Source of the DNA: an uncultured Mycoplasmataceae bacterium
GTDB lineage: Bacteria; Bacillota_I; Bacilli_A; Mycoplasmatales; Mycoplasmoidaceae
DNA: 64,000 nt
Assembly (NCBI GenBank): GCA_949282725.1
Contig: CASDPP010000001.1
Location: 1 to 64,000 of the forward strand
Direction of reading: 5' to 3'
Part shown: positions 10,862 through 53,511 of the stretch, one piece after another
Layout: the number at the start of each line of letters is the position of its first letter
How positions within the stretch are numbered: the stretch's first letter is position 1
The notes under the pieces: generated by a model
Told to the model about the DNA's origin: nothing
Databases searched by the model: none
What the model saw: only the letters and a program-made list of their open reading frames with translations
Position numbers and translations under genes: made by a program

Positions 10862-11450
10862 TAATAAAAATATTGTTAACAATATTGTTTATTATATCAT
10901 TAATATTTTCATTATTTGATAATTGAATAGCACTAACAGGAATGTGTAAAAATGATTTATTGATTGTTATTAATTGATTAGAGTTGTCTAGTTCATTAGT
11001 TTTATCAGTTAAATAAAAAATTTTGGTAATCTTATTATTTAAAAATGATTTTACATTATTAAGAAATTTAATTGAATTAATAATAGTTTTTTGATTTAAA
11101 TTATCATCAAAAACAAAATATAACTTGTAATTTAAATTATTAAAAATATTTCAATCAATAAATGCTATATTTGGCTGAATAAAAATATAAACCTTTTTAT
11201 AATATTCAGTAATTTTTAAAATATCATTAGTAATATTAGTAGGATTTTTTTTATTTAAAAAATAGTAGTGAATTGATTTTTTATCATAAAATAAAAGATC
11301 TTTAATATTAGCTTTCTTTTTTAATAATTTCTTATTAAAAGGATAAAAATTAATCACAGCAGTTGATTTAATATTTAAATTATTTTTTATAAGATAATCG
11401 ATCATTTTTTCGATTTTATCTTCACTAAAATTAATTAATATTTTATGCAT
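10848..11450 (-). CDS. Conserved-position hypothetical protein downstream of rsmG
   Basis: 200 residues, Asn/Lys/Ile-rich, with no motif I recognise. It starts 1 base after the rsmG stop and its end overlaps dut. In the Mycoplasma genitalium chromosome a protein of similar size follows gidA-gidB (mnmG-rsmG), so this may be the counterpart; that is recall of gene order, not a comparison. One UGA near residue 100 is Trp. It is part of the leftward mnmG-rsmG cluster. Confidence 0.7.
10869..10896 (-). promoter_or_regulatory. Internal promoter with 18-bp perfect palindrome before dut
   Basis: AATATTGTTAACAATATT at 10869-10886 is a perfect palindrome. It sits between a minus-strand TATAAT (10896-10891) and the dut ATG at 10861, so it covers the expected transcription start. 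It also forms the end of the upstream coding region. An operator is plausible but the regulator is unknown. Confidence 0.4.
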
Positions 11451-11451
11451 A

Positions 11452-12153
11452 TTATTTGTTTTTTATAATTTGTGATCAAGATCTAGGATATTTACGGTTT
11501 GTTTTTTTAATTTTTGTATAAATCAAAACATTGTGTGTGTAATTATTCTCACTAATAAAATGTTCATGTTTTAATTCTTTTAAACATAATTCTTTTAATA
11601 GATGATTAATATTTTTCATTTCATTTAGATAGTTTTTAGATTTAGGAATAACTAAAATTCCATTAACTTTTAAATATCCGACTGATATTTCTAAAATAGT
11701 TTTTACATCAGCTACTGCACGAGAAGTAACTAAATCAAAAGTTTCATATTCATCTTCTTTAATTTCTTCTGCTCTTTTGTTAATAATAGTTACATTGGTT
11801 AAATTTAACTGGTTTACTAGTTCATTTAAGAACTTAACTTTTTTATTATTTGATTCAATAATTGTTAAATGTAAATTAGGAAAAATAATTTTTAAAGCTA
11901 TTCCTGGTATTCCTGAACCTGATCCGATATCTAGTATAGTTTTAATGTTATTAAAATCTAAAGTTTTATAAGGAATGATTGAATCATATAAATATGACCC
12001 ATAAATTAATTCTGGTTTATCAAGTCTAGTTAAATTTAGTTCTTTGTTTTTTTGTGTTAAAAAATTTAAATATGAATCAAATAAATCAAAAGCTTTTTGA
12101 TTTATATTAGGATAATATTTTTTTACTAAATCTTGAAAAGTTTTTTTATCCAT
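11452..12153 (-). CDS. rsmG: 16S rRNA (guanine-N7) methyltransferase RsmG
   Basis: 233 residues. The SAM-binding motif LDIGSGSGIPGIALKI, then IIESNNKKVKFLNEL and FDLVTSRAVADV, are typical of RsmG/GidB, which methylates G527 (E. coli numbering) of 16S rRNA. One UGA close to the end is Trp and adds a short tail after KYPRS. It begins 2 bases after the mnmG stop, so the two are cotranscribed, as in many Firmicutes and mollicutes. Confidence 0.93.
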
Positions 12154-12155
12154 GG

Positions 12156-13997
12156 TTATTTATTATTATCAACATAATGTTTAATTATGACAATATCATT
12201 TAAGTTGATTCCACTAATTCTTTGTGCTTGTCCTAATGTTAGAGGCATTACTTTATTTAGTTTATCTCTCGCTTCTAATGATAAATTATCAATTTTAGAA
12301 AAATCTTTGATTGAAGAAATATCATAATCTTCATACTTGTTAATTCGGTTAATGTGTTTTTGTTGATTTTTAATATAACCATCAAACTTAACAATTATTT
12401 CAATTTTTTGAACTACTTCAGGACTTAATTTATTTAATTTAGTAGGTGAAATAATATCAGATAGTCTTACTTCAGGTCTTTTTAAATAAGAATATAAATT
12501 ATGTGGTAACCTTTTTTTATCACCAGTTAATTTTTTATTAATAGATAAAGAATTAGTTTTTAATCATTTAATTGTTTTATCAATGATCATTTTTTCTTTT
12601 TTATATGTTTGATAATGTGATTTAGGTACTAAACCAATTTTATAACCATAATCAATTAAACGATCTAGTGCATTATCATTTCTTAAAAACAAACGGTGTT
12701 CAGCACGACTTGTTAATAAACGATAAGGATCATTAACACCTTTAGTAACAATATCATCGATCATTACTCCAATATAAGATTCTGATCTTTTTAAAATTAA
12801 TGGTTTTTTATTTTTTAATGCTAATGAAGCATTAATACCAGCAATTAGTCCTTGAGCAGCTGCTTCTTCATAACCAGAAGTTCCATTTACTTGTCCAGCA
12901 AAATAAAGTCCTTTAATTTTTTTAGATTCTAATGAAGGTCACAATTGAACAGGATTAATTGCATCATATTCAATTGCATAAGCATATTTAATAAACTTAG
13001 CTTTTTCTAAACCTTTAATAGAATGAACTAATTGTTCTTGTACTTTAGCAGGTAAAGAACTTGATAATCCTTGTAGATAAACAGTATCAAGTTTTTTAGA
13101 TTCAGGTTCAATAAAGATTTGGTGTCTTGGTTTATTAGCAAATCTTACTATTTTATCTTCAATACTAGGACAATATCTTGGACCTATTCCTGAAATATTA
13201 CCTGAATACATTGCTGATTGCTTAATGTTTTTTAAAATAATATCATGAGTGTTTTGGTTTGTATAAGTGATATAACACACTTCTTGTTTATTTAAAGGAA
13301 TATATCTTTGGTTAAAATGACTAAAACAAAGTTTTTCTTTCGAACCTAATTCTTTTTCTAAAACATCATAGTTAACAGAATCTTTTTGAATTCTTGGAGG
13401 AGTTCCTGTTTTTAAACGAATAATTTCAAAACCTAAGTCTTTTAAGTTTTTAGATAAATTAGCTGATTGTTTTAAACCATCAGGACCTTCTGTTTTAGTA
13501 TTATTACCAATATGAATAGTAGAGTTCATATAAGTACCACTAGTAATAATTACTTTTTTAGTATTTAAAACACCTTTTGATGTTTTAACACCACAAATTT
13601 CATTATTTTTAGTTAATAGTTCTAAAGCAGTAGTTTCTATTAAAGAAAGATTTTTTTGTTTTTGAATTTCTTTAATAAAATATTCATGATATTTATTTTT
13701 ATCAATTTGTGCTCTTAAAGATCACACTCCTGGTCCTTTAGAAGTATTAAGCATTTTAATTTGTAGTAATGCATAATTAGTTGCTAATGCTTGCATACCT
13801 CCTAAAGCATCAATTTCTCTTGTGACAATCCCTTTAGCAGGACCACCAATTGATGGATTACAAGGTGTTAAAGCAACTGATTTTTTATTAATTGTTAAAA
13901 GAGCTGTTTTAAATCCAAGTTTAGATGTGCAAAAAGCAGCTTCTAAACCAGCATGACCAGCACCAATAATAATTACATCAAAATTATTTTTAGTCAT
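12156..13997 (-). CDS. mnmG: tRNA uridine-34 5-carboxymethylaminomethyl modification enzyme MnmG
   Basis: 613-residue FAD protein that works with MnmE on the wobble uridine of tRNAs. The N-terminus has the Rossmann FAD motif [14 protein letters not shown], followed by [13 protein letters not shown] and [11 protein letters not shown]. The middle has LKTGTPPR and the C-terminus has [17 protein letters not shown] codons are Trp. It heads the leftward cluster and is divergent from the YmdB-like gene across 40 bases of AT-rich sequence containing TATAAT boxes for both strands. Confidence 0.95.
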
Positions 13998-14861: not shown

Positions 14862-16131
14862 ATGCAAACAGTTAAAAAAACTAATTTAAATTGAAACTTA
14901 AATGATGAAATTTTTCTCATAAAAAAGAAAGATCTGTTTTTTTAACATCTAATAAATATAAAACAATGACTCTTTCAGATAAAATTAAATGATCTAAAGA
15001 AAGAATTAAGGAATTTGTTTTGTATATTAAAAAAAATTGTGCTAAAGATACAATTCCAACATTAAGTTTTTCTGGCGGTAAAGACTCTTGTGTTATAAAA
15101 GATTTGGTAGAAAAAACATTTAAAGAATTAAAAATATCATATCAGTTTAATATCATTACATCTTTTGAAATATTTCATCCAGATACATTGAAATTTATCA
15201 ATGAAGAAAAGGAAAAATGATACAACAATCCAATTGTAAAAAACAATATTAAGAACAAACGGGGGGGGATTGACTTGTACTCCGACCAAAGAAAAACTTC
15301 TTAGATATTGTTAATGAAGATGGTTATCCTGTTATTTCTAAACAGATAGCTCAAAAACTACAACACATAAGAAATACTAAAAATCATACCAGATATATTA
15401 GAAGATGCTTGGGATTATCTGGTAAGCTTTTTGGTACTATTCCTTTAAAATATATTCATTTTCTTGATAAGAACTTGATTGATTACAACATTTCACATAA
15501 ATGTTGTGATTACATTAAAGGAAATGTTAAACATGATAAAAGTCCAAGTTTTGTAGGCACAACAATTGAAGAATCATTATTGAGAAAAAGTTCATGAATA
15601 ACTCATGGATGCAACATATATACATCAAAAAAGATTTTATGTAGACCTATTTCATTGTGAACTGAAGAAGATATATGACAATATATTAAAAAATATAAAA
15701 TTAGAGTTTCTGACATATATAACAAAGGATTTAGAAGATCTGGATGTATAAGTTGTATGTTTGGAATGTCACTAGAATCATTTATTAAATCTAGAAACCC
15801 AGAAAAAGATAATCGGTTTGAGTTATTATTTAAACAAAGTAGAAAGACATTTGAGAATATGGTTATGTCTGAAAGAATAGGATTATGAAAACCACTTACA
15901 GATATGTGAATAAAATTAGATATTGATCATAAAGAATATCAACAGAAATATAAGAAAAGACATAAACAATTAATTGATTGATACAAAAACTATGATAAGA
16001 ATATATTAAAAGTTTTAAATGAAATAGAAAGCAGAAACCCAAACGTTTGAACAAAAAATGAAAAACAACAAATTATTAACAAATATAAAAAAGCACAAAT
16101 AACAATTTTAAAAGGAGAAAAAGATGAGTAG
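14862..16131 (+). pseudogene. PP-loop ATP-pyrophosphatase (PAPS-reductase-like), frameshifted at a G8 run; phase-OFF candidate
   Basis: The pieces add up to a protein of about 400 residues. They contain the PP-loop SFSGGKDS, then IRPKK-type and DGYPVISK segments, a Cys-rich GCISCMFG motif and WTEEDIW. This matches phage-type or DndC-like PAPS-reductase-family proteins, which activate substrates with ATP for sulfur transfer. Reading from ATG 14966 is open until the G8 run at 15261-15268. One more G (or two fewer) would join it to the downstream frame, giving RGGDWLVLRPKKNFLDIV. A longer N-terminus from ATG 14862 also needs one extra A in the A6 run at 14921-14926. The stop overlaps the next gene by 8 bases. 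Either an assembly error or slipped-strand variation could explain this. Confidence 0.8.
15261..15268 (+). repeat. G8 homopolymer at the frameshift of the PP-loop gene
   Basis: Eight consecutive G in a genome with very low GC. It lies exactly where the frame changes from position class 2 to class 1. G9 or G6 would restore one continuous reading frame. Confidence 0.9.
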
Positions 16132-18085
16132 TATTAAAACAAAAATTTTACAAGGTAAAAGTAATTCAATAAATAATAAAAATGAATCATGAGAATTATT
16201 CAATATGAATATGATAATTCCATCATATCAACGCCCTTATTCGTGAGGTAAAAAAGAAATTGAACAATTACTAAAAGATTTACATCAATCTTTTTTTGAT
16301 CAAAAAAACGATGAATATTATTTAGGAAACATAATGCTTCAAGAAATGGAAAATTGTTCATCTTATGAAATAATAGATGGTCAACAAAGAACAACTACAT
16401 ATTTTTTAGTATTTATGTACCTTTTTATTGAAATATGTAATCAAACAAAAAAAGATACATCAGAAAGTTTAGGTAATAAAAAAAACACATACAAAGCATT
16501 GTTTGATAAGATAAGTAATGCAATTCAACATCAAGATCCAGATCGACAAATTTTTACGCAAATATATTTAAAACAAAAAGAGTGTTATCAATATGGGACT
16601 AACAATGATGAAATTATTACTGAATTAAAAACTGAGATAAAAAAAGAAAAAAAAGATCCACATGTAGATAGAAGATTTTGGCTAACACAAGCAAAAAAAT
16701 TTAGTGATGCATTTAAATATATAAACAAATTTTTTAAAAATCGAAAAATTGATTATTTAATAGAATTTATTGAGTCAATGATATATAAAACTATTTTTTT
16801 TGGCACAATAATTCCTAAAGATTATTCTGTACCTTCTCAAATTCTTTTTGAAAAAATAAACAATAGAGGATTAAAGTTAGATGCGTTTGATAAATTAAAA
16901 GCTTTTTTCATGCAAGATATTTTACAAAAAAACGATAGATCAGAAATAATTAAATTTAATGATAATTGAGGACATTTAATATCAAATACTGATAATGACA
17001 CTGTTCAATTTATAAAATATTTTTTTGACTTTCAAACAAAAAACAAAGACATTAAAAAAGATGATATTGACTCTATTTATTTGATAATTAAAGAAAAAGG
17101 TTGAACAATTAATGAAACATTTGAAAAAATTTTAAAAATATCAAGAATATTTAAAAAGAATTTAAAAGATGAAAAAAATAATGATATATTAGCATGTAGA
17201 CATTTATTTAATTGTTTCAACTATTTTAAATATGAAATCATTTATATTAATATTCTTTCAAAATTGGATGATAAAAACATAAGGTCAAATTATATTTCTA
17301 ATGAAGAAGTTGTTCAATTAATTAAACAAATTTTATTAAATGTTTTTAAATTTAATTTTTGCTATAAGTTTATATTAAATTTACCAACTCAAGAATTCAT
17401 AACAGATGTTATTACGCCATTGAATGAAAAAATTAATGATGTTTGAGATAATCGTATAACTGATGAAGATAATTTAAAGAAAATTAAAAAACATATATCT
17501 GAATCATTTAGTGATTACAGAAAAAGAAAATATGGGGATTTAACTAGAATAATTGAAAAAAATAATACTTTTTCTAGTGACGATTCATGATTATATTATG
17601 GAAAGAAAAACAACAACAAATATTTCTATTTATTAAAAATATTAATGGATTATGATGATTTAGATACAGTAAATTCAATAACGGCATTAAACAATATTTT
17701 TGGATTAGAAAAAAGTGAAATTGATCATATTGTTCCACAAACAAAACCTAGAATTATATTACATAAAGGGGAAGACCCAAAACCTCTTTATAGATGAGAA
17801 AAAAATGAAGATTATTATGAAATTAATGATGAAGTTTATAAAAAATATAAAAAAACATTCAAACAATTAGGCATAAAACAAAAAATAGGTAAACAAAAAT
17901 GAAATGAAAAAATAATTCAACCTTTTTATAATTTACGAATTTTAGCAGACAAAGACAATAAAAGTATTAGAAATACCATATCATTAGAATCATTTAAAAA
18001 ACAATTAGATGAAACATTTAATAAAACACAATATGAACATAAAGCACAAAAATCGTTAATAGATTTCATTAATTCTAATCATTAA
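16124..18085 (+). CDS. DUF262-DUF1524 (GmrSD/SspE-like) nuclease
   Basis: 653 residues, intact with UGA as Trp. The N-terminal DUF262 (ParB/Srx-like NTPase) has IPSYQRPYSWGKKEIEQLL and the hallmark DGQQRTTT near residue 85. The C-terminal DUF1524 nuclease has EIDHIVPQ and, about 70 residues later, NLRILADKDN, the H-x-x-P and N of the His-Me finger. This is the architecture of the type IV restriction enzyme GmrSD and of SspE, which responds to phosphorothioate DNA. AAAGGAG at 16112-16118 sets the start. It overlaps a PP-loop gene whose family includes DndC/SspD, so a sulfur-modification-linked defence role is a sensible inference. Its stop abuts the convergent fprA with no base between. Confidence 0.85.
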
Positions 18086-20415: not shown

Positions 20416-20976
20416 TTAGCATATGAGTTTTAATATTTTATCTTTAATTTGTTTTTGTTGATCTCTAAAATTTCATTGAAAATTCATTTTATTAAAATTA
20501 TTATCATAGTTTTTATCTTTAGATTGATAAAAACAATGTTTTAAATCAAATAAGATAGGTATAAAAACATCATATTTTTCATTAATATTATAATTATTTC
20601 CATTAGTAATTTCCTTATCATCGGTGCGTTTCTTTCCAATTACATAAATTAATCTTTCAGATTTAGATAATTTTGCTTGTCAATAAATAATTTTCTCAAA
20701 ATCTTGAAAATATTGTGCTAAATCTTCATATAAATTTCTATGTTGATTTATTATTACTTTTAACAATCTTTCTTCATTAATTCCATTTATAGTATGATTA
20801 TGCAAAGCAAAGGAATTACAATCATTTTTAACACGTTTTAAAACATTTACTAAACAATGATCGTCTTTGTAAAATAAATTATCAAAAAATTCTTTATATT
20901 TTTTACATGATAAATTATTAATTTTTTTTGTTAAATTAAAATAATGAAATTTTAAAAAGTTTAAATTTATTATCAT
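20416..20976 (-). CDS. Unrecognised protein paired with a Panacea antitoxin (candidate toxin)
   Basis: 186 residues with no family I recognise. It is rich in Lys, Asn and Tyr, has no predicted membrane segment and no obvious catalytic motif; His/Cys-containing stretches FALHNHTING and FDLKHCFYQS stand out. Two UGA are Trp. It starts 3 bases after the Panacea-domain gene, so they are almost certainly cotranscribed. Panacea (DUF4065/SocA-like) antitoxins neutralise many unrelated toxins encoded next to them, so a toxin role is inferred from position only. Confidence 0.6.
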
Positions 20977-20979
20977 TTT

Positions 20980-21420
20980 TTAATTTTCAAATTCTATAAA
21001 CGTTTTGTCTTCTTTTAAGAAGTTTTTGCACGGTTCATCAGAAGGTAGATTTCCTCTTGCGTTTTTTCAAGAAAGATTTTTGTGACTTTTAGCAATTAAT
21101 TGTGAAGCAGAATAATTATTATATTTTTCAAATCATTTACCATAATACTGATCTATTTCTTTTACTTGTTTACTATCTAGTATAAAAATATCTTTTTCTT
21201 CTGATTCAGTAAAAAATCTTTGCATTTCAAAAAAACTTTCTGAATTAACTGGTCCAAATATTCATGCTTGAAAGTTATTTTTTTCTTTAAAAAAACCAAA
21301 GTTTTTCTTTGCTTTTAATTCTTCAACACGGAAAAAGAAAAGGATTTTTTGAATTTTTGATGATAAATCAACCCCTTTTGTAAATAAATATTTAGCTAAT
21401 ATTATTGTATTTCTTTCCAT
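20980..21420 (-). CDS. Panacea (DUF4065/SocA-like) antitoxin
   Basis: 146 residues. The pattern of an early helix with IQKILFFF, then FQAWIFGPVNSE, spaced Tyr-rich helices, and SHKNLSWKNAR near the C-terminus is that of the Panacea antitoxin domain. GGAGGT lies 6 nt before the ATG at 21420, so this start is preferred to the in-frame ATG at 21453, which stands 5 nt after TATAAT (21464-21459). The next gene is the presumed toxin. Confidence 0.75.
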
Positions 21421-21565
21421 ATTTCTACCTCCGTTTTTTTTATATCTGTTCATTATTTATTATAGCAATTATTTTTATTTTTTAATTAGAGCAGACTAAA
21501 ATAAAATAACAAAATTATTAATAAATTAATCTACTTATTAAATATTAATATATAATATATATATT

Positions 21566-23931: not shown

Positions 23932-25152
23932 TTAGTTCTTAGATTTCTTTTTATTACATTCAGGACAAAGAATTTGAATGTTTTCTTCTTCTGATTTACC
24001 ACCTTTTGTTCATGGAATGATATGGTCGAAATGTGCCTTATTTATTTTTTCTATTTTTTTGCCACATACCTTACAATGAACAACGCCATTATTGTTTAGC
24101 CTTTCTTTATTTCAAATTTTGCATTTGATTTCATCAGAAATTTGTCTTTTATTATCAACTAAAAAACAATTTAATTTTTCTTTTACGAAATCAATTCTTT
24201 TTCGAATATATTCTAACGAGTCATACTTAGTACCACCACCCATTTGATTTTTCTTTGCATATTCATTAAATTCGTTTGTAATAAAATTTTGAATTTCACT
24301 TTTATTTTTTAAAAAACTATTTTTTGATTTTAAATTTTCCCTGAAAAAAATGAATAAAGATTCAAAAATAACATTAAAATTTTTAACAGGTATTGAAGTA
24401 TTTTCAATTGTTTTTTTCATTAATGTAAGTGTTTCTAAATATTCACTTTTTATTTGTTCTATATTTTGTAATTCTTTTATAAAAGTTCTTTCTTGTAATT
24501 GTCTAACAGATGATTTTTCTCTTTTGTTAATATTTAAATCAATAGTAATTGCTCTTATCAACAAACCTTTTATAGAAAACCTTTTGTCATTTTTCTTTTG
24601 GTTAGACATTTCTTGAATACTGTTTGTATCTGATAGTTCTCTAATAAGTTCAGAATTTTTTTTGTCCATTTTAGACATCAATATTTCTGTTTTATTAAGT
24701 TGAATGGTGTTTTTATTTAATCTAACAAACAAGTTAATAATATTTTTTTCATCATTTTTACCCAAATCAGCAACATAAATACAAGAATTAGAAAATTTTT
24801 GTTTGATATCCTTAGATAAATCATCATATATTTTTCCATCTATTTTTTCAAATAGTTCCATTTCTTTTTCCGTATCAGAATCTTGCTGATCTTTTATATA
24901 TTTAAAAGGTCATTGTGAATTATAAAAAGAACAAATTGTACTTAATCTTTGTTTTCCATCAACAACTTCATTATTTGCTAAAATTGCAGGCGGAATGTAA
25001 TCCCCCTTAAGAATACTTTTAATTAGGTCATATTTTAATTTTTTTGATCAGATATCTGCATTTCTTTGATAATCAGTGTCTAATTTATATTCTTCATTTT
25101 TAATTTTTGAACAGATATCAGATATTTTTTCTTGTCTAATTTTATTTTTCAT
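23932..25152 (-). CDS. DUF262-HNH endonuclease-like protein
   Basis: 406 residues, intact with UGA as Trp. N-terminal DUF262: YQRNADIWSKKLKYDLIKSIL and VVDGKQRLSTI near residue 70. A long helical middle follows. The C-terminal HNH domain has CKVCGKK, AHFDHIIPWTKGG, ENIQILCPECNKKK, meaning two zinc CxxC pairs and the H-N-H nuclease core. The gene begins inside the end of the methyltransferase-like gene (11-base overlap), so the two are translationally linked. The layout resembles type IV or methyl-linked restriction; the exact target is unknown. Its stop touches that of ung. Confidence 0.85.
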
Positions 25153-25665
25153 AATTAATTTTTTTATATGTTTCTTTATTCATTACTCAACAGCACTGGA
25201 AAGATTTCTTTCCAGTTGGAGAAGAAAAAGTAACATTTTTTTGAATAAAATATATACCACATTTATTTAATGTATTTCCCATACTTTGTGAACAAATGGT
25301 TGAGCCATATAGTAAAACAAAATCTTTTTTAAAAGACATACACTTTTCAATTAAGATTCTTTTTTTAGAAAACGGAGGATTAGAAATAATAATGTCTCAT
25401 TTTTTTGGTTGATATTTATAAAAATCTTTTCCTTCTTTTATGTGTGAAAAAATAACCTTGTATCCTTTTTTTGTAAAGACTTTAACAAAATTACTTTCTT
25501 CTGTATCAAACGGGCATCAAATTATCTTATTTTTAGAAATTTTGATAATTTTTAATAATTCTTCAACAATGTGCTTTGGAGTATAAAATTCATCATTCTT
25601 TTTTTGAAATCCAAGAATGTTTCTTATATTGTAAGAGTTTTTACTCTCTCTCTCTCTCTCGCCAT
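25142..25665 (-). CDS. Adenine-methyltransferase-like protein, start out of frame through a (GA)8 repeat (phase-OFF candidate)
   Basis: The body encodes about 170 residues: NDEFYTPKHIVEELL, IIWCPFDTEESNF, then IIISNPPF, which is the NPPF catalytic motif of N6-adenine methyltransferases. It resembles small phage-type enzymes. The only ATG (25665), 17 nt after a TATAAT (25688-25683), is followed by (GA)8. In this register it reads 13 codons and stops at UAA. The body frame has no start codon between its upstream UAA (25678) and the domain. Seven or ten GA units would join the ATG to the body. The 3' end overlaps the DUF262-HNH gene by 11 bases. Confidence 0.8.
25644..25660 (-). repeat. (GA)8 dinucleotide repeat at the 5' end of the methyltransferase-like gene
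   Basis: Seventeen bases of alternating C and T on the plus strand (GA repeat on the coding strand), starting 2 nt after the ATG. Its length sets whether the ATG is in frame with the methyltransferase body. Confidence 0.95.
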
Positions 25666-25759
25666 TTGTTTCTTGTTAATTAATTATACTGCGAAATAGT
25701 TAAAACCACTTAACAAAAAACTTAACAACTAATAATTTATATATAATTATTACATAATT

Positions 25760-53478: not shown

Positions 53479-53511
53479 TTGCGTTTTTTTTTTTTTTTTT
53501 TTTGTTAAAAT
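53479..53511 (+). promoter_or_regulatory. Poly-T promoter of LRR gene A (T20, 21-nt spacer)
   Basis: CCCCCCTTGCG, then T20 (53484-53503), then GTTAAAAT. Taking TTGCGT (53479-53484) as -35 and TAAAAT (53506-53511) as -10, the spacer is 21 nt, 4 more than in the sister promoters. This copy would be weak or silent. Confidence 0.6.

Follow-up and report, generated by a model that had tools for sequence, protein, structure and literature searches.

In a classical Type II restriction-modification (R-M) system, loss of the methylase alone should kill the cell, and phase variation is unusual for Type II systems with a separate restriction gene. Switching by AG repeats is known from a Type III mod gene of Mycoplasma mycoides (PMC3498834), and for the uncultured Ca. 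Mycoplasma girerdii the available part of the description reports dinucleotide tracts in R-M and BspA-like genes, with length variants in the reads (PMC5476646). A different switch, an experimentally proven phase-variable attenuator, was described at pil1 of Streptococcus gallolyticus, where a leader stop 39–49 bp before the terminator gives low transcription and one located 4 bp before it or inside it gives high transcription (PMC3894217). Here we analyze a locus of an uncultured Mycoplasmataceae bacterium, located in a stretch of 64,000 nucleotides (contig CASDPP010000001.1, from its first position; hereafter the window), in which a repeat sits at the beginning of a methylase gene (M) followed by a nuclease gene (R). 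The first-pass annotation had described a phase-variable methylase adjoining a DUF262-HNH nuclease, and on every point that the sequence can test it was right.

The methylase gene and its repeat

We have used genetic code 4 (TGA as tryptophan) for all coordinates and counts, since Ung, PstS, RecR and other genes are open only under this code; ORF calls made with code 11 are misleading for this organism and were dropped. The features of the locus are collected in Table 1.

Table 1. Features of the methylase-nuclease locus in the window (genetic code 4).
Feature	Position	Strand	Basis or remark
R, DUF262-HNH nuclease, 406 aa, intact	23932..25152	-	GmrSD_N 1.4e-16, HNH 1.3e-14
HNH domain of R (CxxC, FDH, CxxC)	23938..24075	-	Pfam, motif
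DUF262/GmrSD_N (ParB-like NTPase) domain of R, DGKQR motif	24670..25125	-	Pfam, motif
11-nt overlap, M stop / R start	25142..25152	-	sequence
M body frame, EcoRI-family N6-adenine methylase	25142..25675	-	~173 aa once in frame
13-codon ORF, product of the 8-unit (OFF) state	25625..25666	-	frame arithmetic
(GA)8.5 tract	25644..25660	-	codons 2-8 of M; candidate phase-variation element
M start codon ATG	25664..25666	-	sole ATG/GTG/TTG able to enter the catalytic part
TATAAT, putative -10 element	25683..25688	-	16 nt 5' of M ATG; sequence

Reading the minus strand, the ATG of M is followed by GC and then by (GA)8G. In the 8-unit state, as sequenced, the translation is MARERERVKTLTI and then a stop, and we computed that tract lengths of 4, 7, 10 or 13 units give a methylase of 171–177 aa with its NPPF motif (25381–25370), all other lengths giving products of 6–17 codons. 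The arithmetic thus reproduces the stop after 13 codons and the full enzyme at 7 or 10 units that had been proposed before, and extends the latter to 4 and 13. The body frame is open for more than 160 codons; it contains no GTG or TTG and just three ATG codons (106, 125 and 158), all of them past NPPF, so that the earlier claims of a single usable ATG ahead of (GA)8 and of no alternative start in the body frame hold as well. The M of two relatives starts with ATG (MQNQKYSIANILGFQKKNDEFYT, MPNNYAYSVSNILG...) at the position that the repeat occupies in the window, indicating that the ATG ahead of the repeat is the natural start of the gene. The repeat therefore sets the reading frame of M, as in SSR phase-variable genes. 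Inspection of the sequence found no strong -35 element to accompany the TATAAT, whose position implies, if it is functional, a very short 5' UTR.

As for the protein, M matched Pfam EcoRI_methylase (PF13651; 1.9e-10, 41.1 bits over a gathering cut-off of 26.4) and phrog_799, a family of phage DNA methyltransferases (1.5e-28). Its structural model (pLDDT 65) has the class I SAM MTase fold, with Foldseek matches that include M.TaqI (7.5e-4); a sequence search of the PDB gave no match. The NPPF motif is invariant in the M of three species, and the homologue in G035, an uncultured Mycoplasmatota MAG, has 68% amino acid identity, with 40, 26 and 67 differences at codon positions 1, 2 and 3. In phage and plasmid collections relatives of M were found in Thermus and Campylobacter phages, the phage genes often being annotated as sugar-phosphate nucleotidyltransferase. 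No mod or res domains of Type III systems were found by profile searches in M or R. These matches place M, as a predicted small adenine methylase, in the EcoRI family.

The nuclease and the repeats of the genome

The nuclease gene is intact and overlaps the end of M, exactly as first annotated. Its N-terminal domain scored 61.7 bits against PF03235 (cut-off 33.2), so that R shares the DUF262 domain of GmrSD; the C-terminal DUF1524 domain that characterizes GmrSD as Type IV was not found in R, which has an HNH domain (PF01844) instead. Neither are there SspABCD genes beside R, its neighbours being Ung, M and YbaB. The best PADLOC match was NsnA, about which we found no paper, the matches in phage and plasmid collections were only distant DUF262 or HNH proteins, and a single-sequence AlphaFold model was uninformative (pLDDT 36). 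No Shine-Dalgarno sequence precedes R, but only 12% of the genes of this genome have one, which makes its absence uninformative for translational coupling to M, and R may well be translated independently. Sequences resembling promoters are no more frequent within M than expected by chance, and so speak neither for nor against a private promoter of R.

We have surveyed the complete genome (593,293 bp, 6 contigs) for other repeats. The tract of M is the only dinucleotide tract longer than 5.5 units, the next longest having exactly 5.5, and its AG/CT run of 17 nt compares with a maximum of 10 nt in 20 order-5 Markov genomes, indicating that it is beyond chance. The only G or C runs of at least 7 are a G8 at 15261 and a C7 and a C8 in hsdM and hsdS. 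In this genome, long dinucleotide or G/C repeats are all found within DNA-modification or related defence genes, and in this assembly four out of four modification-type genes are out of frame.

The G8 (15261–15268) breaks a PAPS-reductase-like ORF (DndC/SspD/BrxP-like) in the region 14951–18085 (plus strand) of the window, and an intact 653-aa GmrSD/DUF262 protein (16124–18085) overlaps this ORF by 8 nt. This is a second modification-plus-DUF262 pair in the window, again with the modification gene out of frame; in genome G001 a related gene has (CT)8.5 in its leader (L061). The C7 and C8 split hsdM (80705) and hsdS (79190) of a Type I R-M system (contig C3, 75551–81337, minus strand) with an intact hsdR. 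There are also T/A runs of 15–23 at positions 53484, 54821 and 58624 of the window and at about 13 further sites of the genome, with none of 12–14. Those inspected lie 30–50 bp before BspA-like LRR lipoprotein genes, between TTGCG-like and TATAAT elements, and probably represent promoter-spacer phase variation of surface proteins. A SocA/Panacea-like antitoxin gene (20983–21453, minus strand) followed by an ORF (20416–20976, minus strand) is a candidate toxin-antitoxin pair.

The pair and its repeats in related genomes

Comparison with related genomes had been suggested as a check, and in them the same pair is present and repeats recur 5' of M. G035 and the Mycoplasmataceae MAG Tb.RUG.208 (G034) carry the pair at unrelated chromosomal sites, suggesting that it moves as a cassette. 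A larger EcoRI-family M with a DUF262-HNH partner was found in G025, G007 and at a second locus of G035, and further EcoRI-family M genes precede EcoRI-like, PD-(D/E)XK-looking or other predicted nucleases (the types other than DUF262-HNH were judged by eye from the sequence). M comes first in every pair, and the start of R lies between -22 and +8 nt relative to the M stop; the two form one operon in at least nine loci, and the Q-R, DGxQR and F..N motifs of DUF262 are kept in all six partners. When the search was extended to the whole class, three more genera (G427, G151 and G343) proved to have the pair; in these M overlaps R, and a T16 or A16 directly precedes M. G415 has a larger version, in which (TC)8 lies before M. 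We regard the pair of the window as putatively Type II-like, with a pairing conserved across several genera. In two of the loci from other mycoplasma genera (L226, position 952, and L228, position 945) the T16 is the U-tract of a strong terminator-like hairpin before the M-R operon, and its length may tune termination.

Among the EcoRI-family M genes of the genus, 15 of 19 have a dinucleotide tract of at least 6.5 units, either inside the gene or no more than 260 nt upstream. Of the 17 tracts of this length in 334 kb, 15 lie within that zone, which makes up 5.6% of the DNA (binomial P ~2e-17, for loci that were chosen for M and a zone set only after an initial inspection). In eight of the 15 tract-bearing loci the tract precedes M, and thus both genes. 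The M of G007, G014, G031 and Mesomycoplasma hyorhinis lacks such a dinucleotide tract. The repeats themselves differ (GA, AT, CA, CT, T) although located at the same place; it is their position that is conserved and not their sequence. G033 shows the same state as the window, M out of frame and R intact (here with a PD-(D/E)XK-looking partner), so genomes with M off and R intact do exist. At another locus, L039 of G002 (11313–12603), M of an EcoRI-like R-M system loses its frame at (AT)10.5 and R contains an in-frame stop, as one would predict were cells unable to tolerate an active R in the absence of M.

We found two placements of the repeat. In the first it lies inside M, as in the window, G002, G021, G024, G032, G033 and, as a C10 tract, G029. 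In the second it lies 65–110 nt before M, within a short leader ORF whose start follows closely on a TATAAT-like element; downstream, ahead of the gene, there is a strong hairpin with its run of T. One of the three leader frames reaches the hairpin and the others stop 19–41 nt before it; at G035 C12 the best frame falls 7 nt short of it. Such modules are also located ahead of lipoprotein genes and of unrelated methylases, and the order leader ORF with repeat, terminator and gene was found at 28 loci of the relatives. A terminator lies between repeat and gene in 24 of the 35 repeats with a gene 60–145 nt downstream, versus 13 of 220 control genes. An open ATG is present within 45 nt before the repeat in 26 of 28 modules (shuffles: mean 9.7, maximum 17), and one or two frames reach the hairpin in 27 of 28 (0 of 400 shuffles as extreme). 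Actually, 0 to 3 open leader frames are common by chance, and we have relied on the combined pattern instead; several of the lipoprotein modules are probably related copies, which makes the effective number smaller. The apparent failure of the pattern at L012 was a junction artefact. One leader of G026 and one of G035 (before an unrelated methylase) share 36 nt 3' of the repeat.

The window locus has no hairpin and its repeat is in M itself, and so it is not a pil1-type attenuator. We would give even chances to a broader scheme, in which the genus shares exchangeable repeat-gated leader-peptide attenuators for restriction operons and lipoproteins and the window would be a variant with the promoter-ATG-repeat head fused to M, M acting as its own leader to gate the DUF262-HNH nuclease. 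In three loci (L050 8890–8934, L183 7420–7463 and L180 4915–4957) GGAGG precedes the leader hairpin and the ATG of M follows directly after the T-run; alternatively, the hairpin could bring the GGAGG sequence near the start codon. GHKL-ATPase genes (identified by eye; L068, L069 and L082) carry AG repeats 63–135 nt upstream, towards the 3' end of the ORF ahead of them, and would be another phase-variable system.

Probable switching of the operon and comparison with known systems

We think it probable that the locus is a self-contained Type II-like restriction-modification operon that moves horizontally and is phase-variable, slippage of (GA)n switching both of its genes together. Slipped-strand mispairing in codons 2–8 would decide whether the ribosome reads the M frame (3k+1 units, ON) or misses it (8 units, OFF), and that M is switched in this way is very likely. 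When ON, M would methylate the DNA and R would cut DNA lacking the mark. In the OFF state the ribosomes would stop 470 nt before the start of R, which would be poorly made. We infer this co-silencing from the distance at which translation ends, from G033 and from the second repeat placement, which would switch the same kind of operon as a unit. Switching the whole operon would avoid self-cutting, and the population would come to contain both defended and undefended cells, and both methylated and unmethylated genomes. Two ways out of the lethality of losing the methylase had been offered at first, and the relatives, with M first and the repeat upstream of both genes, favour joint silencing; a modification-dependent nuclease is less favoured but could act as well.

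This second way is the main rival, and we regard it as possible but rather doubtful. Here M alone would be switched and R always made, harmless until its DUF262 domain senses host modification as in SspE, so that cells with M off would lose defence and be safe with no need of coupling. SspE does require host modification and is not toxic without it (PMC9646914). The DUF262 motifs kept in all six partners fit this, and so does the second DUF262 nuclease of the window, intact behind a modification-type gene broken by G8. However, the C-terminus of R is a plain HNH and not DUF1524, there are no phosphorothioation genes at the locus, and the same repeat placement is found with PD-(D/E)XK-looking or EcoRI-like partners, indicating that switching can do without a nuclease licensed by modification.

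Much less probable is a Type IV logic, in which R would attack foreign DNA that is methylated and the silencing of M would spare the host. The DUF262 proteins GmrSD and BrxU cut modified DNA (PMC10952713), but the single operon of M and R recurs in at least nine loci, cells with M on would be expected to cut themselves, and R lacks DUF1524; we have rejected this reading as unlikely. About as improbable is a productive 8-unit form, made through a frameshift within the GA run or through starts at ATA/ATT: translation table 4 permits such starts and both codons precede the conserved region in frame, but the relatives use ATG at the homologous place and neither a slippery heptamer nor a start signal was seen at the locus. 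The least likely is a decaying pseudogene with an accidental tract, rejected because, although M is out of frame in the one available genome, its sole defect is at the tract, its body frame is open and conserved with codon-position bias, and independent repeats of other sequence sit at the same place in relatives.

Type III restriction requires Mod, and no such dependence is known for the R of the window. Unlike Type III mod phasevarions, M is a stand-alone EcoRI-family methylase of ~170 aa and its partner is DUF262-HNH, not Res. It resembles M.MmyCI of M. mycoides in the AG/GA repeat early in a mollicute adenine methylase gene, in the proposed slipped-strand switch and in being out of frame in the sequenced clone (PMC3498834). 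It also resembles the contingency loci of Ca. M. girerdii, another uncultured mycoplasma with a dinucleotide tract in an R-M gene; the systems in the available part of that description are Type I and III, with no DUF262 pair among them (PMC5476646). With EcoRI-type Type II systems the locus shares Pfam EcoRI_methylase, and the partners in G002 and G029 resemble EcoRI by eye, but in the window the partner is DUF262-HNH and the operon would be phase-variable. R has, like GmrSD, BrxU and SspE, an N-terminal DUF262 with DGxQR and then a His-Me finger nuclease; it differs in its 406 aa, in having HNH (PF01844) and not DUF1524, and in being paired with a methylase. The leaders of the relatives, for their part, are like pil1 in the SSR within a leader ORF, the terminator hairpin and leader stops of two kinds, one well ahead of the hairpin and the other at/in it (PMC3894217). 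They differ from it in their dinucleotide units, in belonging to mollicutes, in preceding R-M and lipoprotein genes and in their many loci per genus; in the open-access literature we found no report of a pil1-type switch for mollicutes or restriction genes.

AG-repeat phase-variable methylases in mollicutes and dinucleotide contingency loci in an uncultured mycoplasma were thus already known (PMC3498834, PMC5476646). New, as far as the open-access literature goes, would be the operon of an EcoRI-family M and a DUF262-HNH nuclease as a phase-variable unit, which adds a DUF262 nuclease paired with a methylase, and the leader attenuators of the relatives, which point to a leader-peptide attenuation switch used genus-wide. 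A hypervariable repeat is repeatedly placed where both genes can go down together, and this makes it directly testable by what means phase variation is possible in a Type II-like system.
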